Of a DNA stretch of 64,000 nt, positions 1,174-14,558 are shown one piece after another. Position 1 is the stretch's first letter, and each line of letters opens with the position of its first letter. The notes beneath the pieces were generated by a model. The model made no database searches. It had not been told where the DNA came from and saw nothing but the letters and a program-made list of their open reading frames with translations. The translations under genes and the position numbers were made by a program. The DNA comes from Salibacteraceae bacterium (GTDB lineage Bacteria; Bacteroidota; Bacteroidia; Flavobacteriales_G; Salibacteraceae): contig JAGYJZ010000012.1 in the NCBI GenBank assembly GCA_018401875.1, forward strand, positions 1-64,000, given 5' to 3'.

Positions 1174-2772
1174 ATGAAATCAACCCTCACCCTAGCCCTG
1201 CTAATGAGTATTGCAGTCTCAGCAATTGCACAATCATTCAACTATAGCCTTTTTCTTGAGCCATTGCCTATCGAAAACCTCGATGGCACACATTCGTATG
1301 CTTTTGGCCAACACGATGGTAAATGGTTGATTATGGGGGGACGAAAGGACGGTATTCACGCCCGGCAACCCTTCAATGCCTTTCCTGCCGCGCAAAACAA
1401 CAATGAAATGATGGTTATCGATCCTGAAAGTGGTCAGGTATGGTCAGCAAACCTTGGAAGCTTGCCTGTCCCTTTGCTCGAGCAATTGCAATCGACCAAC
1501 ATGTGTTTTCATCAATTGGAAGATACACTCTACATCGCTGGTGGCTATGCTTTCAGCAATTCCGCTGCCGATCACATCACTTTTCCATATTTGACGACTG
1601 TCATTGTAAGTCAGACCATTGATGCCATCATCAACAATACAGCTTATTCAGGATTTATTAAACAGACCATGGACTCACGTATGGCGGTGACAGGCGGACA
1701 CTTGGCTTTCATGAACGACCAGTTTATACTTGTTGGCGGGCACCGATTTGACGGACGCTATAACCCAATGGGGCACAACACCTTCGTGCAAACCTACACC
1801 AATGCCATTCGGAAGTTTGGCGTAAACAATTCGGGAAATACTCCGGCCATCTCATCCTTTTCCGAAATTGTGGATGCCGTAAATTTGCACCGAAGAGACT
1901 ACAACCTCATTCCTCAGATATTTCCTGACGGCACCGCGGGTTACTCCATTTCATCGGGCGTTTTTCAAGTCAATGTTGATTTACCCTATTTGTATCCTGT
2001 AGATATTCACAGCAATGGCATCGCAGCGCAAACTTCATTTAATCAATACCTTTCAAATTACCACTCAGCCGTTGCCACGCTTTACGACACCACCAATAGC
2101 ATCAACCACAGCATATTTTTTGGTGGCATGAGCAGGCATTATTATGCCAATGGTGCACTCATTCAAGACGATCAAGTGCCCTTTGTAAAAACAATTTCAC
2201 GCGTAAGCAGAGACGCAAACAACGCGCTTACTGAATACAACTTACCCATCGAGATGCCAAACTACCAAGGTGCCGGTTCCGAATTCTTTCCAGTAGAATC
2301 GTTATTAATGGATGCGCACGAGGTAATCGCCATTGCCGAGACAAGTGCCGACTCTATCATGATCGGTTACATTTATGGCGGAATTAAATCAGAAACAACA
2401 AACCCTTTTACAGCCAACACCACTGCCCAAACCGCAGCAGATGAATCTGTGTTTAAAGTTTGGCTTATTCCTTCGGGAACTGTTGGCACCAAAGCCGTAA
2501 GTTCTTCACATGGCTTTGATGTGGAAGTATTCCCCAATCCTTCACATGGCGCTGTACGTGCCAAGATCACCGCCCCGTCATCAGGCGAAGGTTCTATTTT
2601 AGTGGTAGATTCTCGTGGAAACTTAGTCCATGATTTGCTCATCAATCGCATCAACGAAGGAGAAAATGAGGTCGGGATTTTTGAAGCCGGAATATTAGCC
2701 AGTGGCGTTTATATTTTCACCTTTTCGCTCGATGATCAGTTTTTTGACCAATGCCGTGTGGTGATTAAATAG
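1174..2772 (+). CDS. Kelch-like beta-propeller protein with T9SS type A sorting domain
   Basis: 532 residues. Residues 1-19 form a signal peptide ending in AIAQ. The body has Kelch/galactose-oxidase-like blades, for example 'KWLIMGGRKDGIH', 'DTLYIAGGYAFSN', 'QFILVGGHRFDGRYN' and 'HSIFFGGMSRHYY', which suggests a secreted beta-propeller. The last ~80 residues are a T9SS type A sorting domain (VEVFPNPSHG ... GVYIFTFSLDDQ ... CRVVIK). The propeller may bind ligand or act as an enzyme, but no catalytic residues can be assigned from the sequence. It stands alone between a terminator and the NfeD gene 86 bases downstream. Confidence 0.85.
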   Translation: MKSTLTLALLMSIAVSAIAQSFNYSLFLEPLPIENLDGTHSYAFGQHDGKWLIMGGRKDGIHARQPFNAFPAAQNNNEMMVIDPESGQVWSANLGSLPVPLLEQLQSTNMCFHQLEDTLYIAGGYAFSNSAADHITFPYLTTVIVSQTIDAIINNTAYSGFIKQTMDSRMAVTGGHLAFMNDQFILVGGHRFDGRYNPMGHNTFVQTYTNAIRKFGVNNSGNTPAISSFSEIVDAVNLHRRDYNLIPQIFPDGTAGYSISSGVFQVNVDLPYLYPVDIHSNGIAAQTSFNQYLSNYHSAVATLYDTTNSINHSIFFGGMSRHYYANGALIQDDQVPFVKTISRVSRDANNALTEYNLPIEMPNYQGAGSEFFPVESLLMDAHEVIAIAETSADSIMIGYIYGGIKSETTNPFTANTTAQTAADESVFKVWLIPSGTVGTKAVSSSHGFDVEVFPNPSHGAVRAKITAPSSGEGSILVVDSRGNLVHDLLINRINEGENEVGIFEAGILASGVYIFTFSLDDQFFDQCRVVIK

Positions 2773-2858
2773 CTCTTATTTTGAGAGAAACCGGGCAGCA
2801 GCGAAACTATTTCTCTGATTGCTTGTCTGATTGCGTAAATCAGAACTACATTTATCGC

Positions 2859-4202
2859 ATGATGAAAAAACTTCTCCTCCTTTCTTCTTTTCTGTGCCTC
2901 GCGCTTGCCGTGATCGCTCAAGACAGCGTGAAGCCGATCAAGGTTTACCAGTTTGAAATCAAGGAAGAAATTGCAGCTCCTGTATGGCGCACCACGAAAC
3001 TGGCCATCGAAGAAGCGCATGACATCGGAGCAGACTTAATCTTCATCCACATGAACACCTATGGAGGTGCAGTGGACGCTGCTGATTCCATTCGAACCAA
3101 AATTCTACAGTCGAAAATACCTGTGTACGTGCTTATTCAAAACAATGCAGCATCCGCTGGCGCGCTCATTGCCATTGCCTGCGATAGTATTTTCATGCAG
3201 CCAGGATCTACCATTGGTGCGGCCACGGTGGTTAACCAAACCGGAGAAGCTGTGCCCGATAAATACCAAAGCTACATGCGCAAAAAAATGCGCGCCACCG
3301 CTGAAGAAAATGGTCGCGACCCCGACATTGCTGAGGGAATGGTTGATCCAGATAAAGAAATTGAAGGGGTGAGTGAAAAAGGAAAGGTGATCACCCTTAC
3401 CGTTACCGAAGCCATTGCATTGGGTTTTTGCGATGGTGAATTCAACACCATGGATGAAGTATTGGCCCATACAGGCGTTGGCGAATACACCGTGGTGAAG
3501 CAACGCCTCTCCTCTACCGATAAAATCATTGGTTGGCTGATCAATCCAGCCATCAGCGGAGTGTTGATTTTGGTGATTTTTGGTGGAATCTATTTCGAAC
3601 TGCAATCGCCCGGACTGGGTTTTCCAATTGTGGCTGCTCTAGCCGCAGCGGTGCTTTACTTCGCTCCACTCTACCTTGAAGGACTGGCCGAAAATTGGGA
3701 AATCCTTGTTTTTATTGCTGGATTGATCTTGATTGCCATAGAACTCTTTGTCGTTCCCGGCTTTGGCGTAGCGGGAATCGCTGGAATCGCACTCACCATA
3801 ACAGCGTTGGCGCTTGCCATGGTGGGCAACGTAGGCTTTGATTTTAGACCCGTTGAAATGAGCATCTTGGTGCGGTCATTTCTCATTTCCGTCATTGCTT
3901 CAACCGTGTCGGTGGTGGGGTCCATTCTTTTGGCTGTCAAATTATTTCAAACCAACGCATTTTCGAGTTTGGTGCTGCAAACGTCACAAAACAAATCAGA
4001 GGGCTACACCAGCGCCAGCAAAGAAAATTCAGATATTATTGGAAGTGTGGGTGTTGCATACACCGATATGATGCCGAGTGGAAAAATCGAAATCAACGAT
4101 CGAATTTATGACGCAGCCAGTGAAACAGGATTCATTGAAAAAGGTCAAAAAGTGCGGGTAACCGACTATACGGCTTCAAATTTGAAAGTTAGATTGCTGT
4201 GA
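2859..4202 (+). CDS. NfeD family membrane serine protease (ClpP-class, NfeD1b-like)
   Basis: 447 residues from the ATG at 2859 (a second ATG follows at 2862). The first ~20 residues are a signal peptide. Residues ~25-230 form a ClpP/SppA-like protease domain with the MNTYGG oxyanion segment and the nucleophile segment NNAASAGALIA; the expected Ser is in SAGA. Several hydrophobic helices follow (about residues 235-370, e.g. ISGVLILVIFGGIYF and VFIAGLILIAIELFVVPGFG). The C-terminal ~65 residues fit the NfeD OB-fold (GSVGVAYTDMMPSG ... GQKVRVTDY). Known members cleave hydrophobic stomatin-like C-termini. No stomatin/SPFH partner gene lies next to it here. The longer frame from 2781 is less likely because it would bury the signal peptide. 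Confidence 0.9.
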   Translation: MMKKLLLLSSFLCLALAVIAQDSVKPIKVYQFEIKEEIAAPVWRTTKLAIEEAHDIGADLIFIHMNTYGGAVDAADSIRTKILQSKIPVYVLIQNNAASAGALIAIACDSIFMQPGSTIGAATVVNQTGEAVPDKYQSYMRKKMRATAEENGRDPDIAEGMVDPDKEIEGVSEKGKVITLTVTEAIALGFCDGEFNTMDEVLAHTGVGEYTVVKQRLSSTDKIIGWLINPAISGVLILVIFGGIYFELQSPGLGFPIVAALAAAVLYFAPLYLEGLAENWEILVFIAGLILIAIELFVVPGFGVAGIAGIALTITALALAMVGNVGFDFRPVEMSILVRSFLISVIASTVSVVGSILLAVKLFQTNAFSSLVLQTSQNKSEGYTSASKENSDIIGSVGVAYTDMMPSGKIEINDRIYDAASETGFIEKGQKVRVTDYTASNLKVRLL

Positions 4203-4230
4203 TGCCAACTATTTTTCTCAATATCGCAGA

Positions 4231-5064
4231 ATGATTCGCAGCATCCTATGGATATTCATTGTGCTTCTCTTCTCCACCAGCAATAGCGTTGCACAAAGCA
4301 AGTATGCACAAAAAGTGGATAAGTATTTATCTACTGGCGATACCGCAAAAGCTTTGAAAAAGCTGAATAAATTCATCGCCAAAAAACCCGAATCAACAGA
4401 CCTTTATCTAAAACGGGCAAAGCTCAAAATGGAGCGTGGCGATTACGACCCCGCCATGGTTGACCTCAACAGCGTTTGCAGTTTAAACCGCATTTGTGGC
4501 GAGGCAGAATACTTGAAAGGACTCGTGCGGTTTAAGCAACACGACTACAATGGGGCAATAGCTCACCTCAGTGAATACACAAAAATGAAAGACCACGCGC
4601 CCGCCTGGTTTTACTTGGCACTATCGCACATGTGGCTGCAGAATTATCCGCTGGCGATCAACGGGTTTCAAAAATCGATTGATATAGATGGCAACCAGCC
4701 CCTCGCCTATTACAACGCAGGATTGGCAAGTTTCTACAGCGATAATTTCGCCAATGCCGACCTACTTTTTGCGAAGGCACTAGAACTAACACCAAACGAT
4801 AGCGACATAAAAATTGCGCGGGCCAATGCGCTGATGCAACTCAAAAAATTCGCTGAAAGCAACACCCTTCTTCGCGAGGTTGGCATGGAAGACAAAAACT
4901 ACCGCATCGCCTTATTCAATATTGGCGTAAACTATTTCAGCCTCAACGAAAAAGACCTGGCGTGCGATTACTGGGTTCAAGCCAAAGAATTAGGCCACCT
5001 GCAAGCCGAAGACGCTACTGAGCGCCACTGCGAGAAGAGATTAGGAAGAGTAAAAAAGTGGTAA
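4231..5064 (+). CDS. Secreted TPR-repeat protein
   Basis: 277 residues. Residues 1-22 look like a signal peptide ending in SVAQ. The remainder is about six tetratricopeptide repeats, for example 'AKALKKLNKFIAKKPESTDLYLKRAKL', with A/Y/G/A positions spaced by 34. It has no C-terminal sorting domain, so it is probably periplasmic and binds protein partners. It follows nfeD by 28 bases on the same strand and its 3' end overlaps the convergent symporter gene by 50 bases. The specific partner is unknown. Confidence 0.75.
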   Translation: MIRSILWIFIVLLFSTSNSVAQSKYAQKVDKYLSTGDTAKALKKLNKFIAKKPESTDLYLKRAKLKMERGDYDPAMVDLNSVCSLNRICGEAEYLKGLVRFKQHDYNGAIAHLSEYTKMKDHAPAWFYLALSHMWLQNYPLAINGFQKSIDIDGNQPLAYYNAGLASFYSDNFANADLLFAKALELTPNDSDIKIARANALMQLKKFAESNTLLREVGMEDKNYRIALFNIGVNYFSLNEKDLACDYWVQAKELGHLQAEDATERHCEKRLGRVKKW

Positions 5065-6469
5065 GCACACCGTTGATGAGCAACAGCTCAAATCCTATGC
5101 TGTATCCATTAAACCACGATTCGCTATTTTGCTGCAAGACGTAGCAAGCCAGAGGAGCTATAATTGCCACCAACGGCACCCACGAATCTTTCACTGCGCG
5201 TTTCGTAAACAAACCAAAGGCGTACAAGCCAAGCAAAGGACCGTACGTGTAGCCTGCGACTTTAAAAAGCTCAGAAATCACGCTGTCGTCATTCACTGAT
5301 TTAAAGATCATGATTACGACAAACAGCAGCAACGAAAATCCAATATGAACCGCTTTGCGCACGTTTTTATCACTCGGTTTGTCTACCGTGCCCATGCCCA
5401 AGAAATCTACACAAAATGAAGTGGTGAGCGCAGTAAGCGCACTATCGGCACTGGAATATGCGGCAGCTACCAAGCCCACGATAAAAAGTACGCCTGCCAA
5501 CGAGCCCAACTCACCGCCCAAAGCCAGCGCGGGATATAGTTTATCTCCGGCAATATTCATATCAAAATCAATGTGTGCAGCATACAAATAAAGCATGGCA
5601 CCCAACGACAGAAAGAGCAAATTGGCACCAATCAGTACCACGCTAAACCAAAACATGTTTTTCTGTGCCTCGCCAATATTCTTACAACTCAAGTTTTTCT
5701 GCATCATATCTTGATCGAGGCCTGTCATGCTGATGGTGATGAACATACCAGCGAGAAACTGCTTCACAAAATGCTTGCTGTCATTCCAATCGTCTAGAAA
5801 AAACCACTGCGAGTAATTCGAATTGGAAATGGCTGTCGTCATTTCGCCAAAGCCCCAATCCATCGAATCTTTGATGACAAAAATGGTAACGATCACAGCA
5901 AGTAGCATCGAAGCCGTTTGCAATGTGTCTGTCCAAATAATGGTTTTTATACCGCTTCGAAAAGTGTAGACCCAAATAAGCAACACCGCTACCAACACGG
6001 CCAACCAAAATGGCAGATTCATCGGTTCAAACACCGCTATGTGCAATGCTATAGCCACAAGGTATAAGCGGAATGACGCGCCAATCACGCGCGAAAGCAG
6101 AAAGTAAAACGCCCCGGTTTTATAACTCCAAAACCCAAAGCGCTGTTCGAGGTAGCCGTAAATTGAGGTGAGGTTTAGCCTGTAATACAGCGGCATCAAA
6201 ACGGTGGCAATCACCAAGTAGCCCGCCATATAGCCCATCACCATTTGCATGTAGCTAAACTGGCTTGTTGCCACCCAACCCGGCACCGAAATAAAGGTGA
6301 CACCGCTCAGCGAAGCTCCGATCATTCCAAAGGCTACAACAAACCATGGCGACTGCTTCTTCCCAGAAAAAAAGGCGGCATTAGAATCGTCTTTCCCTGT
6401 GAGAAAAGAAATCAAGATCAACAGTGCGAAGTAGGCACCTATGATTGCGATAACGGTGATAGCCGACAT
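5015..6469 (-). CDS. Sodium:solute symporter family protein (SSS)
   Basis: 484 residues with about 13 hydrophobic helices. Typical family features are an N-terminal helix starting 'AIIGAYFALLILISFLTG', the 'FVVAFGMIGASLSGVTFISVPGW' segment after helix 1, and the 'LTALTTSFCVDFLG' segment in the second half. SSS proteins use the inward sodium gradient to import sugars, amino acids, vitamins or carboxylates. The substrate cannot be told from sequence. The start ATG at 6469 faces the inverted repeat and the metal cluster; the 3' end overlaps the TPR gene convergently. Confidence 0.9.
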   Translation of the reverse strand: MSAITVIAIIGAYFALLILISFLTGKDDSNAAFFSGKKQSPWFVVAFGMIGASLSGVTFISVPGWVATSQFSYMQMVMGYMAGYLVIATVLMPLYYRLNLTSIYGYLEQRFGFWSYKTGAFYFLLSRVIGASFRLYLVAIALHIAVFEPMNLPFWLAVLVAVLLIWVYTFRSGIKTIIWTDTLQTASMLLAVIVTIFVIKDSMDWGFGEMTTAISNSNYSQWFFLDDWNDSKHFVKQFLAGMFITISMTGLDQDMMQKNLSCKNIGEAQKNMFWFSVVLIGANLLFLSLGAMLYLYAAHIDFDMNIAGDKLYPALALGGELGSLAGVLFIVGLVAAAYSSADSALTALTTSFCVDFLGMGTVDKPSDKNVRKAVHIGFSLLLFVVIMIFKSVNDDSVISELFKVAGYTYGPLLGLYAFGLFTKRAVKDSWVPLVAIIAPLACYVLQQNSESWFNGYSIGFELLLINGVLTTFLLFLISSRSGAQ

Positions 6470-6562
6470 GCGTGCAAAGTTGAATCGACTTCCTTAAAGT
6501 GATAACACAGCGGTGAATAGTTTTGAACAGAGGAAGATTAGCGTTGCGCGCTGGATGGATGA

Positions 6563-6608
6563 TTTGTGGCTCATGGTTCATTCCATCTCTCGAACCATGA
6601 ACCACAAA
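6563..6608. repeat. 17-bp inverted repeat between the symporter and metal-cluster genes
   Basis: Left arm 6563-6579 (tttgtggctcatggttc) and right arm 6592-6608 are reverse complements except for one position, with a 12-base loop. No T-run follows on either side, so it is not a standard terminator. It lies between the divergent starts at 6469 and 6693, where an operator or a structured leader RNA would be expected. Confidence 0.7.
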
Positions 6609-6673
6609 CTTTCAACTTTTATTAGCCAAAACGTTTTCGACAACGATAAAGAGCAAACTAAATCGAAGATTTG

Positions 6674-6681
6674 TAAATTTG
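6674..6681 (+). promoter_or_regulatory. Candidate -7 promoter element (TAAATTTG) of the metal-type cluster
   Basis: Exact match to TAnnTTTG, 11 bases before the ATG at 6693. No convincing -33 TTG is present. Confidence 0.35.
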
Positions 6682-6692
6682 CTGGAATCTGC

Positions 6693-7037
6693 ATGAAAAT
6701 TTTAACGTACTTAATCACCTTAACGGTAATCATTCTCTCGCTAAAACCAGCAATAGATGCTATTCCGTTTTTATCAGAGAAACAACAAACCTTTTGCAGC
6801 AGTGCCGCGTGCAAACCAATATTCGACAATCAAGATTCAGATAAAGAAAGTGACAAAGAAGAAAATGGAATGTGCAATCCATTTCAAGCTTGCGGTTCGT
6901 GTCTTTTAATTTGTGTAACCACACCATTTGTTTTGACACCACAATCAAATTTTTCAACTGAAGAATTCTTCGGATACCAATCATTTTTCACTTCTCAATT
7001 GATTTCTGACTTTTGGCAACCGCCAAAATTTGTTTAA
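6693..7037 (+). CDS. Small Cys-containing membrane-anchored protein (DUF6660-like)
   Basis: 114 residues from the ATG at 6693. A longer frame reaches back to 6513 but runs through the inverted repeat and gives no signal peptide at its start, so the internal ATG is preferred; it begins 'MKILTYLITLTVIILSLKPAID', a signal or anchor helix. The mature part has five Cys residues, including the cluster CNPFQACGSCLLIC, and an acidic stretch DSDKESDKEE. Small proteins of this shape sit beside heavy-metal TonB receptors in many Flavobacteriia, and the neighbours here fit that picture. The DUF6660 assignment is from memory of family features and is tentative. Function unknown; metal binding is an inference from the cysteines. 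Confidence 0.65.
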   Translation: MKILTYLITLTVIILSLKPAIDAIPFLSEKQQTFCSSAACKPIFDNQDSDKESDKEENGMCNPFQACGSCLLICVTTPFVLTPQSNFSTEEFFGYQSFFTSQLISDFWQPPKFV

Positions 7038-7108
7038 CAACATATTCGACCGTTCAAAAGAACTGTGTTCTAGGTTCACTGATAGTTAAACGATTTAAAA
7101 TCAGAAAA

Positions 7109-7456
7109 ATGAAATTTTTAAATATTTTCTTTTTGGCGACCACCTTTTTTTTAGCCGCAACAGAAGCCACTTTCGCTCAATCCATAACGGAAAAAGAACA
7201 GGTGCACGATGCGCCAAAAACAATTACCACCAAGGTAAAAGGAATTACCTGCTCAACAGACTTGAAAATGATTTCAGCAAACGTTAATAAGTTGAAAGGA
7301 GTTAGAAATTGCAAAGCAGGCAAAACAGGCCCTGCAACAACATTTGAAATTGCCTACGATCCGGCTTTGATAACAGAGCAGGAAATTTATTCGGCAATAC
7401 AAAACACAGGCAGTTGCGAAAATCCTGACGATAGACCATATAAGGTGAAACAGTAA
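7109..7456 (+). CDS. Secreted HMA-like (heavy-metal-associated fold) protein with a degenerate CxxC
   Basis: 115 residues from the ATG at 7109; residues 1-23 are a signal peptide ending TFAQ. The mature protein has the ferredoxin-like HMA pattern: 'TKVKGITCSTDLKMISANVNKLKGV' then 'FEIAYDPALITEQEIYSAIQNTG'. Classical copper chaperones have GMTCxxC; here the second Cys is replaced (TCSTD), leaving Cys in the loop plus isolated Cys at 'RNCKAG' and 'GSCENP'. It lies 71 bases after the Cys-rich small gene and 63 bases before a TonB receptor, so a periplasmic metal-handling role is likely. The metal is not identifiable. Confidence 0.75.
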   Translation: MKFLNIFFLATTFFLAATEATFAQSITEKEQVHDAPKTITTKVKGITCSTDLKMISANVNKLKGVRNCKAGKTGPATTFEIAYDPALITEQEIYSAIQNTGSCENPDDRPYKVKQ

Positions 7457-7519
7457 GTGTTTAAAGGGTGAAATGTAAAGCGACTACACGTTGCCTTTTC
7501 ACAAAATCAAATTGAGACA

Positions 7520-9745
7520 ATGAAGTACTATGTATTCATGGTTGGTTTACTGTTTCCATATGCTCTGATTTCGCAAAGTATCTTAGGAAAAGTAACCAAC
7601 GAAAATAACGAAGCACTTGTTGGTGCGAGCGTATATTGGGTCAATACCACCATTGGCATAACGTCAGGCGTTAAAGGCGAGTTTGAACTATCAACAAAAG
7701 AAGTTTCACCAAAACAGCTTGTTGCAAGCTATGTTGGTCATACTTCCGATACAATTGAAGTTAATGAGCAAACTTTTATCGTCTTCAAACTAAAAGAATC
7801 ACAAACGCTGAATGAAACAGTGATAAAGGCTCAGCGTGATGGGGTAATTATTTCAAACCTCAATCCAATCAAAACTGAACAAATCACACAAACTGAATTA
7901 GGGAAAGCAGCTTGTTGTGATTTAGCAGGATGTTTCGAGACCCAGACCACCGTTCAACCTCAAACAACCAACGTTGTAACAAACTCAAAAGAACTTCGCA
8001 TTCTTGGGCTTTCAGGTGTATACAATCAAATTTTGATTGATGGTTTCCCAATGATTCAGGGCTTGACTTATACTTATGGCATTAGCAGCATTCCTGGGAC
8101 ATTGGTGAATAACATTTATGTTTCGAAAGGTGCAAACAGCGTCCTTCAGGGCTTTGAGAGTATTAGCGGACAGATAAATATAGAAACAAAAGAACCTGAC
8201 CAAACCGATAAACTTTTTCTAAACGCATACATCAACAGCTTTTCTGAAAAGCACATTAACGCCAACTATGCGGTAAAAAAAGGAAAATGGAGCAACCTCA
8301 CCTCTGTTCATTCGGTGCAACCAGCGAACGAATTTGACAGGGACGGTGATGATTTTCTTGACTTACCAAAACTAACCAGATACATGGTTTCCAATAAATT
8401 GAAGTATGGTAATGACAAAGATTGGGGCTGGAATAGCCGGATAGGCTTGCGCTATTTAAAAGAGCATCGCATAGGTGGTCAAACATTTTTCAATTCAGAT
8501 ACTGACAAAGGAAGTACAGAAGTTTATGGACAGACCGTAAATATCAATCAGCCTGAACTGTCGACAAAAACAGGCTATCGCCTAAACGACCAACACAATT
8601 TTGTGCTGTTTGCATCAGGTTTTCATCAAAATCAAGAATCTTATTTCGGAACCGTAAAATACGATGCCAATCAAACCAATTTTTACGGTAATCTGCAATA
8701 CGAATTGAACTATGCCAAAAATTCATTAAAAACAGGTTTCAGTTTTCGCCATTTGAATTTGGATGAAAACATTGCTTTCACAGAAAATTCATTGAACAGG
8801 ACTTACTCAGGTAATTATTTAAGGCAAGAAAACATAGCAGGAGTATTTGCAGAAAATACGTTGAAATTGCTTAACGATAAGTTGACTTGGATTGCAGGAA
8901 TTCGTGCCGATAATCACAATCAATTTGGAACAATAGTAACACCAAGAACACTTCTGAAATATGACATTACACCAAACACCACTATTCGAGCAAATATTGG
9001 ATCAGGCTGGCGAACGGTAAACCTATTTAGTGAAAATATCGGCCTATTGGTGAGCTCACGAGACATCATTTTCGCAGAGCAACTCGAACCTGAAAAAGCA
9101 CTTAATTCAGGAATTAATTTTACACAGAAATTTAATGGTGAAAATGTTTCAGGATTTTTCAGTGCTGACTATTACCGCACTGATTTTCAAAACCAAATAT
9201 TTCCTGATTACGACACAGATCCAAGGAAGGCAATCATTGAAAACTTCAAAGGAAAAAGTGTGAGCAATACGTTTCAGGCAGAAGTATATCTTAGTTTTTG
9301 GCGGCAATATGAATTTAAAACAGGCTACAGCTTTTTAGATGTATATCGCGATATTAACGGACAGAAGGTGCTTTTGCCTTTCAACCCGAGACATAAAGTA
9401 GTTACGACTTTAGGGTACAAACCAATTTCGGACAAATTTCATATTGATATGAACATCCATTGGTATGGTCAGCAGCGATTGCCAAACACACAAAGCAATC
9501 CATCTGAATTTCAACGACCTTACTTTTCGGAAAATTATATCCTTGTAAACGCTCAGTTTACCTACAACCTAAAGCGATTCGAATTGTATGCAGGCTGCGA
9601 GAATATTTTTGACTTCAGACAAGAGCGTCCGATTATAGGTTGGCAAGATCCCTTTGGACAGTTTTTTGACACCAGCTCAGTTTGGGGACCAACTCGCGGA
9701 AGAGAATTATACGTAGGTGTTAGATTTAAAATTCCAGGTGAATAA
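7520..9745 (+). CDS. TonB-dependent outer-membrane receptor, probable metal (chelate) uptake
   Basis: 741 residues. Signal peptide 1-19; carboxypeptidase-regulatory-like domain ~20-95 (ILGKVTNENNEALVGASVYW); plug domain ~100-225 with 'LRILGLSGVYNQILIDGFPMIQG' and 'VSKGANSVLQGFESISGQINIETK'; beta-barrel to the end, last strand 'ELYVGVRFKIPGE'. The plug holds three Cys (132, 133, 138) just before the conserved part, a feature shared with the second receptor in this window. It is the last gene of the co-directional run after the Cys-rich and HMA-like genes, so its cargo is likely a transition metal or its complex. Import needs TonB-ExbB-ExbD, which are not in the window. Confidence 0.88.
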   Translation: MKYYVFMVGLLFPYALISQSILGKVTNENNEALVGASVYWVNTTIGITSGVKGEFELSTKEVSPKQLVASYVGHTSDTIEVNEQTFIVFKLKESQTLNETVIKAQRDGVIISNLNPIKTEQITQTELGKAACCDLAGCFETQTTVQPQTTNVVTNSKELRILGLSGVYNQILIDGFPMIQGLTYTYGISSIPGTLVNNIYVSKGANSVLQGFESISGQINIETKEPDQTDKLFLNAYINSFSEKHINANYAVKKGKWSNLTSVHSVQPANEFDRDGDDFLDLPKLTRYMVSNKLKYGNDKDWGWNSRIGLRYLKEHRIGGQTFFNSDTDKGSTEVYGQTVNINQPELSTKTGYRLNDQHNFVLFASGFHQNQESYFGTVKYDANQTNFYGNLQYELNYAKNSLKTGFSFRHLNLDENIAFTENSLNRTYSGNYLRQENIAGVFAENTLKLLNDKLTWIAGIRADNHNQFGTIVTPRTLLKYDITPNTTIRANIGSGWRTVNLFSENIGLLVSSRDIIFAEQLEPEKALNSGINFTQKFNGENVSGFFSADYYRTDFQNQIFPDYDTDPRKAIIENFKGKSVSNTFQAEVYLSFWRQYEFKTGYSFLDVYRDINGQKVLLPFNPRHKVVTTLGYKPISDKFHIDMNIHWYGQQRLPNTQSNPSEFQRPYFSENYILVNAQFTYNLKRFELYAGCENIFDFRQERPIIGWQDPFGQFFDTSSVWGPTRGRELYVGVRFKIPGE

Positions 9746-10630
9746 GTCAGCATCTAAACACATACATTCCAATTAATTGCGCATTTATTGTTTGTTTTTG
9801 GCGTTCGTATACTTGCATTTTACACCAGCCGAAACACCAACCAAAAATTACAAAGAAGTATGTCTTTGCCAACACTAAAAAAAGCCAATGGCCAACATTT
9901 TGGATAAGCATTAGCTAGCGAAATGGTAAAACCTGCCTTACCGTCAGGCGGTTCAAGGTCGATGCATTTAATAAACTTTTGTGGAGGAGGACACGCAATC
10001 GCCTTTGAATCCATGTCTGCGCATCTAGGCGCTTCTGTTCTTTTACTTTGACCGCACGCCCACCCCTCTTCGTTTCTACCATTCCACGATTCGTCTCATT
10101 CCCTCACAAAAATGGACTCGCCACCTCTGGAAAGTCCATCTATAGCGAACGTGGCATGCGCAACGCTGGCCTTAGCGGACATTGATCCTAGCAATCCAGA
10201 TAGCTATCGGGATTGCGGTGCGGAGCGCGCTGGTTTCTAGCATCTTTTCTACCGCCTTGCGTATTGGCGAAGTGAAGCTTTGGCATGTTCCACCCTCATA
10301 CATTTATAGGGACGCCAATTATTGAAGACTGGCAGTAAAACAAATAAAACCCAAGTGGGGAAATTGCAGCATTGAAAAAAGAAGAATTAATCGCTTACCA
10401 GTAGGCACCGGAGAATGGACATACTAACATATAGACCGCGCATTTGGCAAGCATCCAGAATACTTTCGGAACCTAAAACACACAAGCCACCGCACAGACT
10501 AAAGCTGAACGTCAACGTATGTCTGCCCCACGCACAAACAGGACAGAACTCCGAAATTCCGTCTTACCTTAGCAAAGCCGTTCGAGCATTGAAAAAAGAC
10601 GAAAGGCAATGCACATAACAGGAATCTACC
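9746..10630. other. 885-base stretch without a convincing gene
   Basis: Only short frames without recognisable motifs are found on either strand (for example 64 codons at 9820-10014 minus and 67 codons at 10415-10618 plus). The stretch contains a 24-bp palindrome (10192-10215) and the phrase gcattgaaaaaaga twice (near 10370 and 10586). It looks like decayed or imported DNA leading up to the Kunitz gene. No tRNA, terminator or promoter of good quality was seen. Confidence 0.5.
10192..10215. repeat. 24-bp near-perfect palindrome centred on gatagctatc
   Basis: The two 12-base halves are reverse complements with one mismatch (core gatagctatc, flanks caatcc / ggattg). Palindromes with the core CCCGATAGCTATCGGG are familiar as dispersed intergenic repeats in Bacteroidota genomes; whether it is repeated here needs the whole genome. 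Confidence 0.6.
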
Positions 10631-10882
10631 ATGAAAAATACCTTGGCTTCTTTCATCCTTCCGTTCATCATCCTGCTGTTGGTGGTGCAAGTAGAGCAAG
10701 ACAGTGTAAAACCAGATAGATGCACCTTGGTGCCAGACGCTGGTCACTGCAGGGCCGCTTTCCCGAAATTTTACTTTGAAAAAAATGAAAAAAAGTGCAA
10801 GCAGTTTATATGGGGCGGTTGTGGTGGAGTGGTTCCTTTTAACACCCTAGAAGAATGTGAACAGCAGTGTGAATGTGAATGA
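10631..10882 (+). CDS. Secreted Kunitz/BPTI-type serine protease inhibitor
   Basis: 83 residues: a hydrophobic signal peptide (about 1-20) followed by one Kunitz domain. The six Cys are at 31, 40, 56, 64, 76 and 80; their spacing 9/16/8/12/4 compares with 9/16/8/13/4 in bovine pancreatic trypsin inhibitor (BPTI). Aligned hallmarks are 'PDAGHCRA' (P1 residue Arg41, predicting trypsin-like targets), 'FYF' for the Tyr21-Phe22-Tyr23 strand, 'FIWGGCGG' for FVYGGC, and 'FNTLEECEQQC' for the C-terminal helix. The conserved Asn43 of BPTI and one residue are missing between the fourth and fifth Cys (GCGGVVPF). A seventh Cys (82) follows the domain. The gene stands alone with its own terminator, between unassigned DNA and a repeat array near tRNA-Ser. 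The target protease is unknown. Confidence 0.88.
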   Translation: MKNTLASFILPFIILLLVVQVEQDSVKPDRCTLVPDAGHCRAAFPKFYFEKNEKKCKQFIWGGCGGVVPFNTLEECEQQCECE

Positions 10883-10890
10883 CATTTGAC

Positions 10891-11230
10891 TTCAGCACTG
10901 CAAATCAACCATCGCTGGTGCGATGGTTTTTTTTTAAGACCTTTCTGCGCTTGAACTTCGTTCAGACTGGAATTATTCAGGATTATTCCCTAAGGGAATG
11001 ATCCCTGTTGGGGGAGGTTCAGAACTGCAAATCAACCATCGCTTATGCGCTGGTGTTTTGTTTTAAGACCTTTCTGCGCTTGAACTTCGTTCAGACTGGA
11101 ATTATTCAGGATTATTCCCTGAGGGAATGATCCCTGTTGGGGGGAGGCTTAGAACTGCAAATCAACCATCGCTTATGCGCTGGTGTTTTGTTTTAAGACC
11201 TTTCTGCGCTTGAACTTCGTTCAGACTGGA
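10891..11230. repeat. Tandem array of a ~127-130-bp hairpin-rich unit, about 2.6 copies
   Basis: Unit 1 is 10891-11017, unit 2 is 11018-11147 and a partial unit 3 is 11148-11230. Copies are nearly identical apart from a few substitutions and small indels. Each full unit contains a potential hairpin accatcgc/gcgatggt (intact as a terminator in unit 1, one mismatch in unit 2), tgaac-ttc-gttca, and an 11-bp stem with a 3-base loop (10980-11004 and 11109-11133; ggattattccc / gggaatgatcc). There is no coding frame through the units. Confidence 0.9.
10908..10935 (+). terminator. Rho-independent terminator of the Kunitz gene
   Basis: Perfect 8-bp stem accatcgc / gcgatggt with a 4-base loop followed by a run of nine T. 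It lies inside the first tandem-repeat unit, 26 bases after the stop codon. Confidence 0.85.
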
Positions 11231-11247
11231 AAGGTCTTAAAACAAAA
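11186..11247. repeat. 18-19-bp inverted repeat closing the tandem array
   Basis: Left arm 11186-11203 (ttttgttttaagaccttt) lies in the third repeat unit; its perfect reverse complement is at 11230-11247, just outside the array. One more C-G pair extends the stem inward. The right arm exists only once, so an inverted fragment of the unit appears to mark the end of the array. Confidence 0.85.
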
Positions 11248-11276
11248 ATGGCCCTTCCGGGCCATTGATTTTTGTT
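11247..11276 (-). terminator. Terminator of tRNA-Ser (possibly bidirectional)
   Basis: Stem aatggccc (11247-11254) / gggccatt (11259-11266) with a 4-base loop. On the minus strand, downstream of the tRNA, it is followed by tttttgtttt; on the plus strand by gatttttg. Confidence 0.8.
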
Positions 11277-11279
11277 CTG

Positions 11280-11364
11280 CGGAGAGTGAGGGATTCGAAC
11301 CCCCGGACCCGTGAAGATCAATAGTTTTCAAGACTACCGCATTCGACCACTCTGCCAACTCTCC
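11280..11364 (-). tRNA. tRNA-Ser, anticodon TGA
   Basis: 85 bases. On the minus strand the acceptor stem GGAGAGT pairs with ACTCTCC, followed by the Ser discriminator G. A D-arm, the anticodon loop CTTGAAA (anticodon TGA), a long variable arm typical of class II tRNAs, and the T-loop GGTTCGAATCC are all present. CCA is not encoded. Confidence 0.95.
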
Positions 11365-11368
11365 GCTG

Positions 11369-11396
11369 CAAAAGTAAAAATGTATTGGTTTATCAA
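11369..11396 (-). promoter_or_regulatory. Promoter of tRNA-Ser (TTG-N17-TACTTTTG)
   Basis: On the minus strand a -33 TTG (11394-11396) is followed after 17 bases by TACTTTTG (11369-11376), an exact TAnnTTTG, ending 4 bases before the tRNA 5' end. Confidence 0.75.
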
Positions 11397-11789
11397 TGAG
11401 TATCGCTGCACATTCATCATTTCAGGGCATTAAGCAATTGATATACAATAGCTAAAAATTAAAAGGATAAGGCATTTTGATCGGTTTTCTCAATACAAAT
11501 CACCCCCACTGCACATCAAAAATGTCAGATTGTTTCATTTGTCCCATCCAAGTCAACCTTTTAAGCAGCCTTCTGCATCCTAACATTGCATTCTGCGATG
11601 ATTGAAACACTCAGTGAAAGAAACCAATCGCTCCTTCAACACGATTTAAACATGGAATGATCCAAATGAAGCGCGACACACCTAAACACAAATCACTGAT
11701 AATCAACCATCAAATTGATAGAACCAACTTGTAAGTGCAGCATTGTTTAAAAAGTTGACTTCTAAGCTCTTCAATCTAGGAAAGATACT
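11397..11789. other. Intergenic region between tRNA-Ser and rpmG, no gene seen
   Basis: About 390 AT-rich bases with stops in all frames. rpmB (L28), which often precedes rpmG in this phylum, is not present here. No hairpin or repeat of note was seen. Confidence 0.5.
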
Positions 11790-11797
11790 TATTTTTG
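11790..11797 (+). promoter_or_regulatory. -7 promoter element (TATTTTTG) of the rpmG operon
   Basis: Exact TAnnTTTG, 27 bases before the rpmG ATG; the nearest clear TTG upstream is too far for a -33 element. Confidence 0.55.
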
Positions 11798-11824
11798 CAC
11801 CCCTATTTTACAAAGACAGTAATC

Positions 11825-12007
11825 ATGGCAAAGAAAGGAAACAGAGTTCAGGTAATTCTTGAGTGCACAGAGCACAAGGAAAGTGGTAAGCCAGGGACGT
11901 CTCGTTACATCACCACCAAGAACAGAAAGAACACTCCTGATAGAATTGAGATTAAGAAGTACAATCCAATCCTACGCAGGGTAACGGTTCACAAAGAGAT
12001 TAAGTAA
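11825..12007 (+). CDS. rpmG: 50S ribosomal protein L33
   Basis: 60 residues beginning [18 protein letters not shown] and ending VHKEIK, the usual L33 length and pattern ([24 protein letters not shown]). It has one Cys and so is of the zinc-free type. The ATG at 11825 is preferred over an in-frame upstream start because MAKK is the conserved L33 N-terminus. It heads the run rpmG-DUF4295-ftsY-rimO. Confidence 0.96.
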
Positions 12008-12027
12008 AACCATAAAAGCATTGAGCC

Positions 12028-12183
12028 ATGGCTAAGAAAACAGTAGCAGGATTAAGAAAGCAAGGAGCAAAGGATTTTACCAAAGTAATTAAGATGGTGA
12101 AGTCAGACAAAACCGGAAATTATAGCATTCGTGAAGAAGTGATGCCAAAGGATTTGGTAGATGATTTCTTGAAGTCTAATTAA
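12028..12183 (+). CDS. DUF4295 family small protein
   Basis: 51 residues (MAKKTVAGLRKQGAKDFTK ... VDDFLKSN), basic. This family of about 50 residues is found in Bacteroidota, almost always between rpmG and ftsY, exactly as here (20 bases after rpmG). The position with L33 suggests a ribosome-associated role, but no function is established. A terminator follows. Confidence 0.93.
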   Translation: MAKKTVAGLRKQGAKDFTKVIKMVKSDKTGNYSIREEVMPKDLVDDFLKSN

Positions 12184-12203
12184 TTGATCCTAAATGATAT
12201 TTT

Positions 12204-12243
12204 GAAAGCTTCTTTCTTCTGAAGAAAGAGGCTTTCTTTGTTT
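12204..12243 (+). terminator. Terminator after DUF4295
   Basis: Near-perfect 16-bp inverted repeat (12204-12236) with a minimal loop and one T-G pair, followed by tttgttt. It probably separates rpmG-DUF4295 from ftsY at least partly. Confidence 0.75.
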
Positions 12244-12263
12244 AAATCAATCAAGCATTCAGA

Positions 12264-13226
12264 ATGGCACTATTCGGCTTATTTAAATCGAAAAAGGAAA
12301 CCCTCGACAAAGGACTTGAGAAAACCCGAGAAAGTGTTTTTTCTAAATTGTCGCGTGCCGTGGTTGGCAAGTCGAAGGTTGACGATGAAGTGCTCGACAA
12401 CCTCGAAGAAGTGCTGGTGACATCTGACGTAGGGGTTTCAACTACGCTGAAAATCATCGAACGGATTGAAAACCGCGTTTCAAAAGACAAATACGTCAAC
12501 GCTGCCGAACTGAACGACATCCTGCGGGAAGAGATTTCGCTGTTGTTGGAGGAAAACAAAGCCGGTGAGGTAAAGAATTTTGAAGAAGACCTGAACAAAA
12601 AACCATACGTCATCATGGTTGTTGGCGTGAATGGCGTTGGAAAAACAACCACCATCGGCAAGCTTTCGCATCAATTCGCCAAAGCAGGTAAAAAAGTAGT
12701 GATCGGTGCTGCCGACACCTTCAGAGCAGCCGCCATAGACCAACTCAGAGTGTGGGGCGAAAGGGCAAATGTGCCAGTAATCGCGCAGCAAATGGGCTCA
12801 GATCCGGCTAGCGTGGCTTTTGACACACTAGAATCGGCCATGAAAACAGGTGCTGACGTGGTGATTATCGACACCGCTGGACGTCTTCACAACAAAGTAG
12901 GCCTGATGAACGAGCTCACCAAAATAAAGCGCGTAATGCAAAAGGTAGTGGCCGATGCACCGCACGAAATACTTTTGGTGCTGGACGCCTCAACTGGGCA
13001 AAACGCCTTCGAACAAGCGAAACAATTCACGGCAGCCACAGAAGTAAATGCCTTGGCCTTGACAAAACTTGACGGCACTGCAAAAGGTGGCGTGGTAATC
13101 GGCATCAGCGATCAATTTAAGATCCCTGTGAAGTACATTGGCGTGGGTGAGAAAATCGAGGACCTCCAACTGTTCGACCGCAGGGCCTTCGTTGATTCGC
13201 TTTTCGGATCAGAAAAATCAAACTAA
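12264..13226 (+). CDS. ftsY: Signal recognition particle receptor FtsY
   Basis: 320 residues. N domain ~1-105; G domain with P-loop GVNGVGKTTTIGKL at ~120, DTFRAAA at ~153, DTAGRL at ~204 and TKLDGTAKGG near 265. The N-terminal acidic A domain is nearly absent, as is usual in Bacteroidota. The protein receives SRP-ribosome complexes at the inner membrane and hydrolyses GTP to hand nascent membrane proteins to SecYEG. rimO starts 3 bases downstream, so the two are co-transcribed. Confidence 0.97.
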   Translation: MALFGLFKSKKETLDKGLEKTRESVFSKLSRAVVGKSKVDDEVLDNLEEVLVTSDVGVSTTLKIIERIENRVSKDKYVNAAELNDILREEISLLLEENKAGEVKNFEEDLNKKPYVIMVVGVNGVGKTTTIGKLSHQFAKAGKKVVIGAADTFRAAAIDQLRVWGERANVPVIAQQMGSDPASVAFDTLESAMKTGADVVIIDTAGRLHNKVGLMNELTKIKRVMQKVVADAPHEILLVLDASTGQNAFEQAKQFTAATEVNALALTKLDGTAKGGVVIGISDQFKIPVKYIGVGEKIEDLQLFDRRAFVDSLFGSEKSN

Positions 13227-13229
13227 TTC

Positions 13230-14558
13230 ATGCGCACAAAAGGAAAAAGATCAGAAAAGATCAATGTTGTAACCCTCGGTTGCTCCAAGAACATCTACGA
13301 TTCAGAAGTGCTGATGGCGCAGCTTAAAGCCAATGATTTTTCCGTTGAACACGAAAGTGAAAAGGAAGATTTCAACACTGTAATCATCAATACGTGCGGA
13401 TTTATCGACAACGCAAAAGAAGAATCCATCAATACGATTCTTCAGTTCTCTGAAGCCAAGAAAAAAGGCTGGGTTGAAAAAGTGATTGTCACCGGTTGCC
13501 TTTCTGAGCGCTACCGAGAAGACCTTGAAAAAGACATCCCTGAAGTAGACGCTTGGTTTGGAACACGCGAATTACCACGGTTATTAAAAACACTCAAGGC
13601 CGACTACAAGCATGAATTGGTGGGCGAACGTTTTCTCACTACGCCAATCCACTACGCCTACTTAAAAATCAGCGAAGGATGTGACAGGCCGTGCGCGTTT
13701 TGTGCGATTCCTTTGATGCGCGGAAAACACATCTCTACGCCTATCGATGCATTGGTGAAACAAGCTAAATCATTGGCTGCGCAAGGCACAAAAGAATTGA
13801 TTCTCATCGCGCAAGATTCTACCTATTACGGACTCGACATTTACGGAAAGCGAAACCTCGCTGAATTGATGAAAGCGCTGAGTGAGGTGGAAGGCATCGA
13901 TTGGATCAGACTACATTATGCGTATCCAGCCGGATTCCCAATGGACGCCATCGAAGAAATGGCGCGGAATCCAAAAATTTGCAACTACCTCGATATTCCG
14001 TTGCAGCACATCAACGATACCATGCTCAAGCTCATGCGCAGAGGCACTACGCGCGAAAAAACAGACCGCATTTTAGCTGAAATGCGCCAAGTGAATCCAG
14101 AAATGGCCATCCGAACGACACTCATTACAGGATTTCCAGGCGAAACAGATGCGCATTTCAGAGAAATGTACGATTGGGTGGCTTCCACAAAATTTGATCG
14201 GTTGGGTGTTTTCACCTACAGCCATGAAGAAAACACACACGCCTTTCAGTTTGAAGACGATGTTCCTGCCGAAATAAAACAAGAACGCGCCAATGCAATT
14301 ATGAAACTGCAGGAAGAAATCAGCTTCGAACGCAACCAAGCACGCATCGGAACACACGAAAAAGTACTGATTGATCGCAAAGAAGGTGGCTTCTTTATCG
14401 GCCGAACGCAATACGACTCGCCTGAAGTAGACAACGAAGTAGTGATCGATGCGAGTGAGCAATACCTCAGAATGGGCGACTTTGTGGAAGTGAAAATTAC
14501 GGGCAACACGGCCTTCGATCTTGAAGCAGAAGTTATTCGTGATGTGAAATCAGTTTGA
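13230..14558 (+). CDS. rimO: Ribosomal protein S12 methylthiotransferase RimO
   Basis: 442 residues. N-terminal MTTase domain with Cys in 'VTLGCSKNIYDSEV', 'INTCGFIDNAKEE' and 'VTGCLSERY'; radical-SAM domain with 'CDRPCAFCAIPLMRGKHIS' (the CxxxCxxC cluster ligands); C-terminal TRAM domain (~375-440). The enzyme adds a methylthio group to the conserved Asp of ribosomal protein S12. It follows ftsY by 3 bases. Confidence 0.97.
   Translation: MRTKGKRSEKINVVTLGCSKNIYDSEVLMAQLKANDFSVEHESEKEDFNTVIINTCGFIDNAKEESINTILQFSEAKKKGWVEKVIVTGCLSERYREDLEKDIPEVDAWFGTRELPRLLKTLKADYKHELVGERFLTTPIHYAYLKISEGCDRPCAFCAIPLMRGKHISTPIDALVKQAKSLAAQGTKELILIAQDSTYYGLDIYGKRNLAELMKALSEVEGIDWIRLHYAYPAGFPMDAIEEMARNPKICNYLDIPLQHINDTMLKLMRRGTTREKTDRILAEMRQVNPEMAIRTTLITGFPGETDAHFREMYDWVASTKFDRLGVFTYSHEENTHAFQFEDDVPAEIKQERANAIMKLQEEISFERNQARIGTHEKVLIDRKEGGFFIGRTQYDSPEVDNEVVIDASEQYLRMGDFVEVKITGNTAFDLEAEVIRDVKSV

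Follow-up and report, generated by a model that had tools for sequence, protein, structure and literature searches.

The tandem array between the Kunitz gene and the tRNA-Ser gene in the window (the whole 64 kb stretch of DNA analysed here) belongs to an element that is real, structured, anchored to a tRNA gene and shared across the phylum. In our view, the most consistent interpretation is that the array is a local, amplified instance of a gene-less mini-island at tRNA 3′ ends, a reading to which we give a probability of about 0.52. The architecture and its conservation, the tRNA linkage, the displaced tRNA ends, the anatomy of the array and the evident copying of an array between two tRNA-Ser loci are documented below.

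We infer that the element is mobile, that an enzyme recombines it and that arrays arise by amplification, as follows. A gene-less element of about 165–190 bp, found directly 3′ of tRNA genes in the phylum, would insert at the T-arm of the tRNA gene. It would bring a tRNA 3′ end of its own, together with a terminator, so that the tRNA would stay functional, and the original 3′ end and terminator would be pushed to the far side of the element, as with full-size tRNA-targeted islands. One strand would form a cloverleaf in which arm 1 is the tRNA terminator, the long arm 2 is the palindrome and a third arm follows; this cloverleaf, a box and a hairpin that mimics the T-arm would probably be the features by which a recombinase or transposase acting in trans recognises it. 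Repeated copying of the half from palindrome to core would yield the tandem array, and the outermost copy in the window would have been recruited to terminate the convergent Kunitz gene.

Anatomy of the array in the window

TRF reports a single tandem array in the window (10891-11231, period 130, 2.6 copies, 95% matches), with copies that start at 10891, 11018 and 11148 and are thus spaced by 127 and 130 nt. These are the near-identical units, the last one partial, that the earlier note had described between the two genes. Its other anatomical claims also hold: there are two copies of the 11-bp stem and its 3-base loop (10980-11004, loop TAA; 11109-11133, loop TGA), one pair of the stem being T.G; the first unit provides the terminator of the Kunitz gene on the + strand, a perfect hairpin at 10907-10928 followed by a T-run; and in the other two units the terminator stem is mismatched (ACCATCGC TTAT GCGCTGGT). 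No ORF of at least 60 aa is listed between 10883 and 11794, which rules out the copies as coding sequence. An assembly artefact is unlikely, because the copies differ from one another and similar arrays are present in the single-contig genome G023. The Kunitz/BPTI-domain protein looks secreted, its host is a bacterium, and it has matches in ten of the 60 genomes searched, its own counted.

The unit boundaries first proposed run across the biological unit, and the array is only part of the feature; the link to the tRNA and a 19-bp inverted repeat had been overlooked. The third unit extends into this perfect repeat (11186-11204 / 11229-11247). The other arm is supplied by the tRNA-Ser gene, which is convergent, and is the distal side of that gene's terminator. 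A search of the window for inverted repeats (at least 16 bp, seed 11, distance up to 160) returned five. Only in this one do long perfect arms enclose a 24-nt centre; the remaining four comprise a simple terminator, two palindromes that overlap and an 88% pair. Read along the tRNA-Ser strand, the tRNA is followed by its terminator (T), an apex hairpin (HP2), an inverted terminator copy (T′), a C-rich box and a T-arm-like core hairpin (Table 1). The array units repeat the half after T, from HP2 to the core, and T itself is single.

Table 1. The tRNA-Ser element, its tandem copies and the neighbouring gene
Feature	Position	Strand	Basis
tRNA-Ser (anticodon TGA), anchor of the element	11279-11364	-	ARAGORN; Rfam RF00005, 58.6 bits
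T, intrinsic terminator of the tRNA and 5′ strand of the long arm	11229-11278	-	Sequence, fold
Hairpin of T, cloverleaf arm 1	11247-11266	-	Fold
5′ strand of the long arm, within T	11229-11247	-	Inverted-repeat search, fold
HP2, apex hairpin of the palindrome (tRNA strand: CTGAAC GAA GTTCAAG)	11205-11228	-	Sequence, fold
T′, inverted copy of T	11154-11204	-	11186-11204 is 100% complementary to 11229-11247
Arm 3 hairpin, inside T′	11165-11184	-	Fold
C-rich box (GGGGGGAGGCTTAGA on +), conserved beside tRNA-Ser elements	11139-11153	-	Comparison
Core hairpin, copy B, T-arm-like, 11-bp stem, 3-nt loop	11109-11133	-	Covariance model R1, 11109-11153, 64.8 bits
Second tandem unit, without T: copies of HP2 and T′	11024-11108	-	Sequence, TRF
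Second unit: core hairpin (10980-11004, copy A) and box (11010-11023)	10980-11023	-	Covariance model R1, 62.5 bits
Outermost unit, without core: copies of HP2 and T′	10891-10979	-	Sequence
Outermost T′ in + orientation, a perfect hairpin with T-run that terminates the Kunitz gene	10907-10935	+	Sequence
Convergent Kunitz/BPTI-domain gene, neighbour outside the element	10631-10882	+	Pfam PF00014, E 1.1e-13

In all 12 arrays measured, among them L229, which amounts to two complete elements, the similarity between repeats sets in 67-111 nt past the tRNA; this is 3′ of T and never within it. The measurement missed the window array, probably on account of an indel between the copies there; reading of the sequence puts the left edge about 47 nt behind the tRNA, past the terminator hairpin.

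Fold and transcription

The first 174 nt of the window element, folded as DNA, form a closed three-armed cloverleaf followed by the core hairpin (z -9.86), and no shuffled sequence folds equally well; as RNA the z score is -8.75. For comparison, 42 elements were selected by the core motif among tRNA 3′ flanks, and 40 of them were used in the tests below, L201 and L230 being left out because the architecture is absent by eye. The mean fold z scores against shuffles are -6.17 for the sense strand and -5.87 for the antisense strand. A strict cloverleaf with fixed arm sizes is formed by 20 of the 40 elements and by 1 of 1200 shuffles, a contrast that is somewhat favourable since the size limits were chosen once the sizes from a looser run were known; under the looser criterion the figures are 20/40 and 109/800. 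The strict cloverleaf also occurs in 6/164 other tRNA flanks, all six of which read as elements with variant cores. When T was compared with the reverse complements of the T′ sequences, its own T′ ranked best in 23 of the 42 elements and among the top three in 32.

Mismatches in the helices, counted on the tRNA strand in the 40 elements, differ between the parts. In the arm 1 hairpin (HP1) there are 11 G.T, no A.C and one other, so that arm 1 behaves like a transcribed terminator. The core helix has no G.T, five A.C and one other and therefore pairs better on the opposite strand. The spanning helices have 17 G.T, nine A.C and 34 others.

An intrinsic terminator is found on the sense strand in 38/40 elements (shuffled 1.6) and on the antisense strand in 12/40 (shuffled 3.5), a share too small for a bidirectional terminator as the general design. 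These figures bear on the explanation that the element is a vertically inherited functional structure, which selection would have retained as a convergent double terminator or an insulator, or else as a structured RNA, with the arrays as neutral expansions. The terminator counts, the conserved fold, the G.T bias of HP1 expected of a transcribed terminator and the outermost copy, which by its sequence terminates the Kunitz gene, all agree with it. We nevertheless consider it quite improbable: the same test gives no antisense terminator in 28/40 elements, transcription on the tRNA strand should, from the position of T, stop before T′ is made and the structure is complete, and the patchy orthologous loci and displaced tRNA ends described below are left unexplained. 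The units may or may not be small structured RNAs, as was suggested. Both strands do fold far better than shuffles, but T precedes the complete structure, and an Rfam cmscan of the window array and of 20 element loci gave no match above a gathering score other than tRNA.

Occurrence in the genome and the phylum

Searched as a whole unit against its genome, the array is confined to one locus, and the idea of a dispersed REP-like repeat did not survive. The broader proposal of a mobile or amplified intergenic element pointed in the right direction: what recurs in the genome is not the unit but an architecture that includes a short conserved core and is found beside tRNA 3′ ends. The weak matches of the unit led to this core in further arrays. 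A covariance model of the core (R1, built from 11 sequences) has six matches in its own genome at three loci, each 3′ of a tRNA-Ser (TGA in the window, GGA on C31 and GCT on C33); with E<=0.05 as the limit it also matches 32 of 60 relatives, often weakly. Reading of the 3′ flanks of all 26 tRNA matches in the genome showed the palindrome 3′ of three Ser tRNAs and of Arg-TCT, Arg-ACG, His and Asp tRNAs, and duplicated tRNA 3′ ends were read in the same genome 3′ of Val-GAC, Met, Leu-CAA and Leu-GAG. A long inverted repeat like that of the element lies in 21/166 tRNA flanks from six genomes at an arbitrary score cut.

Of 204 flanks, part of which had been fetched on account of core matches, 42 have the core 95-185 nt 3′ of the tRNA; six other positions gave 2-17 of about 200, and reversed and complemented control patterns gave none. 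Across 395 genomes of the phylum, which the gene content of the window suggests to be the Bacteroidota, a pattern of tRNA T-loop, 140-170 nt and GATCAC..GTAATC has 17 matches in 11 genomes, and its reversed control has none. By eye, 15 of the 17 have the standard architecture (two of these are the C31 and C33 loci); L230 is a variant and L236 looks like a chance match in coding sequence. The matches span at least seven families, two of them being outside the class of the window, and the C-rich box and GATCA/TAATC recur across families. Exact-word scans were not useful (no match in viral contigs; an 18-mer in five genomes), and a scan of viral contigs for box plus core gave no match. One core-like hairpin with a box (L078, G005:C43, 1370-1445) lies right behind the terminator of a protein gene, with no tRNA there.

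Orthologous tRNA-Ser(TGA) loci

The tRNA-Ser(TGA) gene was located in 11 of the 13 genomes of the genus, and the presence of the element was judged by reading 520 nt of 3′ flank. Complete elements are present in G000, G001, G006 and G011. G005 has the palindrome, and its contig ends within the box; in G007 palindrome and box are present and the core is missing. The element is absent from the 520 nt read in G003, G004, G009, G010 and G012. Seven of the loci have a common upstream neighbour, three with the element and four without. The downstream gene, too, is common to G006, which has the element, and G010, which lacks it (67% over 437 aa). The G010 locus may be a degraded relic and not an untouched empty site, since the downstream gene lies 186 nt from the tRNA there, compared with 213 nt in G006. 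Because the terminator of the element-free G010 locus resembles T of the window, T may be native at the window locus.

Displaced tRNA ends and signs of insertion

In 8 of the 40 elements the core continues into the last 16 nt of its own tRNA (at least 13/16 matches), against 0 of 1080 comparisons with other isotypes. Local alignment, for which L052 was added to the set, finds a displaced 3′ end of the element's own tRNA in 11 of 41 elements and none above the control threshold in the other 30; the window copy itself shows no displaced fragment. At one tRNA-Pro (L229) two complete elements lie in tandem with differing T and T′, and a full tRNA 3′ end comes after each. T is unrelated to D, the terminator region past the displaced end, in 9 of the 11 cases; in the other two (L051, Arg; L067, Ser) T and D are nearly identical. 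Since the displaced tRNA end is intact and the adjoining terminator is nevertheless unrelated, the sequences suggest that T came with the element.

One alternative is local template switching, without a mobile element, that would produce an A-A′-A rearrangement. A fork would snap back at the palindrome past the terminator and copy T as T′, a second switch at the T-arm palindrome would copy the tRNA end forward, quasi-palindrome correction would keep T and T′ alike, and slippage would expand the array. T′ does repeat the local T in inverted orientation; in 16/40 elements, with p<=0.1, the 3′ strand of the tRNA T-stem has its reverse complement in the 5′ arm of the core; the near identity of T and D in L051 and L067 is as expected of local duplication; and the resemblance of the window's T to the G010 terminator fits as well. 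Against this, T and D are unrelated in the 9/11 cases despite a mostly intact displaced end, no inverted acceptor stem lies between T′ and core, and the box, which by eye is plausible as a degenerate copy of the tRNA acceptor, failed as such against other isotypes and is not detectably tRNA-derived. Nor does local copying lead one to expect that box and GATCA/TAATC recur across families. We regard template switching as a serious rival that may hold for part of the cases, and as unlikely overall.

The arrays on C31 and C33 share about 91% identity over 184 nt, the unit junction included, and their tRNA bodies differ; on this comparison the array has evidently been copied between the two tRNA-Ser loci, by transposition or by gene conversion. 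Gene conversion could account for this copying; an insertion event was not itself seen.

Other repeats were noted beside tRNA genes. At tRNA-Met (L106) the 3′ flank contains degenerate tandem copies of the tRNA 3′ half with a 104-bp unit and a perfect hairpin in place of the anticodon arm, and related T-loop hairpins occur at tRNA-Leu(caa) (L114) and tRNA-Met (L103). An 83-bp tandem repeat 3′ of tRNA-Val(gac) (L101) ends in intact tRNA 3′ ends, lacks the terminator palindrome and is perhaps a stripped-down relative of the element.

Search for an enzyme

Pfam profile searches of five genomes tied no recombinase or transposase to the element. Phage_integrase matches in these genomes are few and, on our reading, mostly Xer-like. 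Y1_Tnp (PF01797) has four matches in G000, one each in G009 and G013, two in G023 and none in G006, which has elements; the Y2_Tnp (IS91-type) profile has no match in any control genome and so is uninformative. In two IMG/VR contigs the element lies beyond an orphan (displaced) tRNA 3′ end. One of these has phage-like ORFs near the element, and the other has a 587-aa ORF that has no Pfam match and reads like a tyrosine recombinase.

These contigs are relevant to the explanation that the elements are scars of full-size tyrosine-integrase islands, which lost their genes and left att sites that were then amplified. The orphan tRNA ends would fit it, as would a 410-aa integrase-like ORF, accompanied by GTACCAAAATG-type iterons, near the 3′ end of tRNA-Ser(TGA) in G004 (L256, 1856-3085). 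We judge it very unlikely, since independent deletions would not yield one design of cloverleaf, box and spacing in many families and since both viral contigs have the element on the far side of the displaced tRNA end.

In G000, the genome of the window, an integron-integrase-type tyrosine recombinase (NF040815 above cut-off, TIGR02249 below) is encoded about 1.2 kb behind tRNA-Leu(gag) (L244, G000:C5:42000-58000, 2627-13400). Small ORFs take up some 8 kb after it, and the repeats among them include CGTTATGGGC / GCCCATAAC; the region is possibly an integron cassette array. As a partner of the element this integrase was rejected, as the repeats there are of another kind and no link was seen.

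A more specific form of the mini-island reading, which we put forward tentatively and hold to be doubtful, is that such gene-less elements form a new mobile class that parasitises tRNA genes. A cloverleaf of single-stranded DNA (or RNA) that ends in a T-arm mimic would be joined by an enzyme into the T-arm of a tRNA gene, the target would be picked through the arm complementary to the T-stem, and the arrays would be by-products.

Comparison with known systems

No such element was found in Rfam or among the titles returned by literature searches, which covered mostly open-access papers. The tyrT repeats (rtT RNA) of E. coli, tandem repeats right behind a tRNA gene, are alike in position. They are known from a single locus in enterobacteria and are not known to have an inverted terminator copy or a cloverleaf, and in these respects they would differ from the element. 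Integron attC arrays are tandem imperfect palindromes that fold as single strands, and by this general definition the element is similar; it differs in that its units have no cassette ORFs of at least 60 aa and no attC core-site pair was seen. A MITE would be expected to carry terminal inverted repeats and the target-site duplication of a known transposase; the element has an inner palindrome and a tRNA-end duplication, and a parent transposon was not seen.

REP and REPIN sequences are 20-40 bp palindromes with a GTAG or CGTC tag at one end (PMC3733652). Like the element, they are short extragenic palindromes that are sometimes in tandem and are possibly moved in trans (PMC3733652). The element differs from them in being few-copy, tied to tRNA 3′ ends, longer and folded into a closed three-armed structure. 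Direct reading found no conserved GTAG or CGTC tag in the window copies or in 23 aligned cores, and instead of many dispersed copies there are six core matches at three loci, all tRNA-Ser. A genome with REP or REPIN sequences would be expected to encode a RAYT (Y1 transposase); the Y1_Tnp matches given above range from none in G006 to four in G000.

There are further parallels with tRNA-targeted integrative islands, in which the tRNA is kept intact by an element-borne 3′ end, a displaced 3′ fragment lies at the far end, the T-loop/T-stem region is used and tandem occupants occur (PMC4383910). The combination of an intact tRNA and a displaced 3′ fragment is found here too (8/40 and 11/41, as above), though it is unseen in the window copy. 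The element differs from these islands in its size of about 0.17 kb, its lack of a gene or integrase and its cloverleaf fold. Islander discards candidates that are under 2 kb or lack an integrase (PMC4383910). With the core 95-185 nt from the tRNA, and with no ORF of at least 60 aa in the window array, such elements fall to these filters, and so Islander would not list them.

If the mini-island reading is true, the array in the window represents a type of mobile element that island finders filter out and that has no entry in RNA libraries. It would account for a class of tandem repeats and tRNA fragments that flank tRNA genes, and the orthologous tRNA-Ser genes with and without the element would be concrete loci at which insertion or amplification might be caught.
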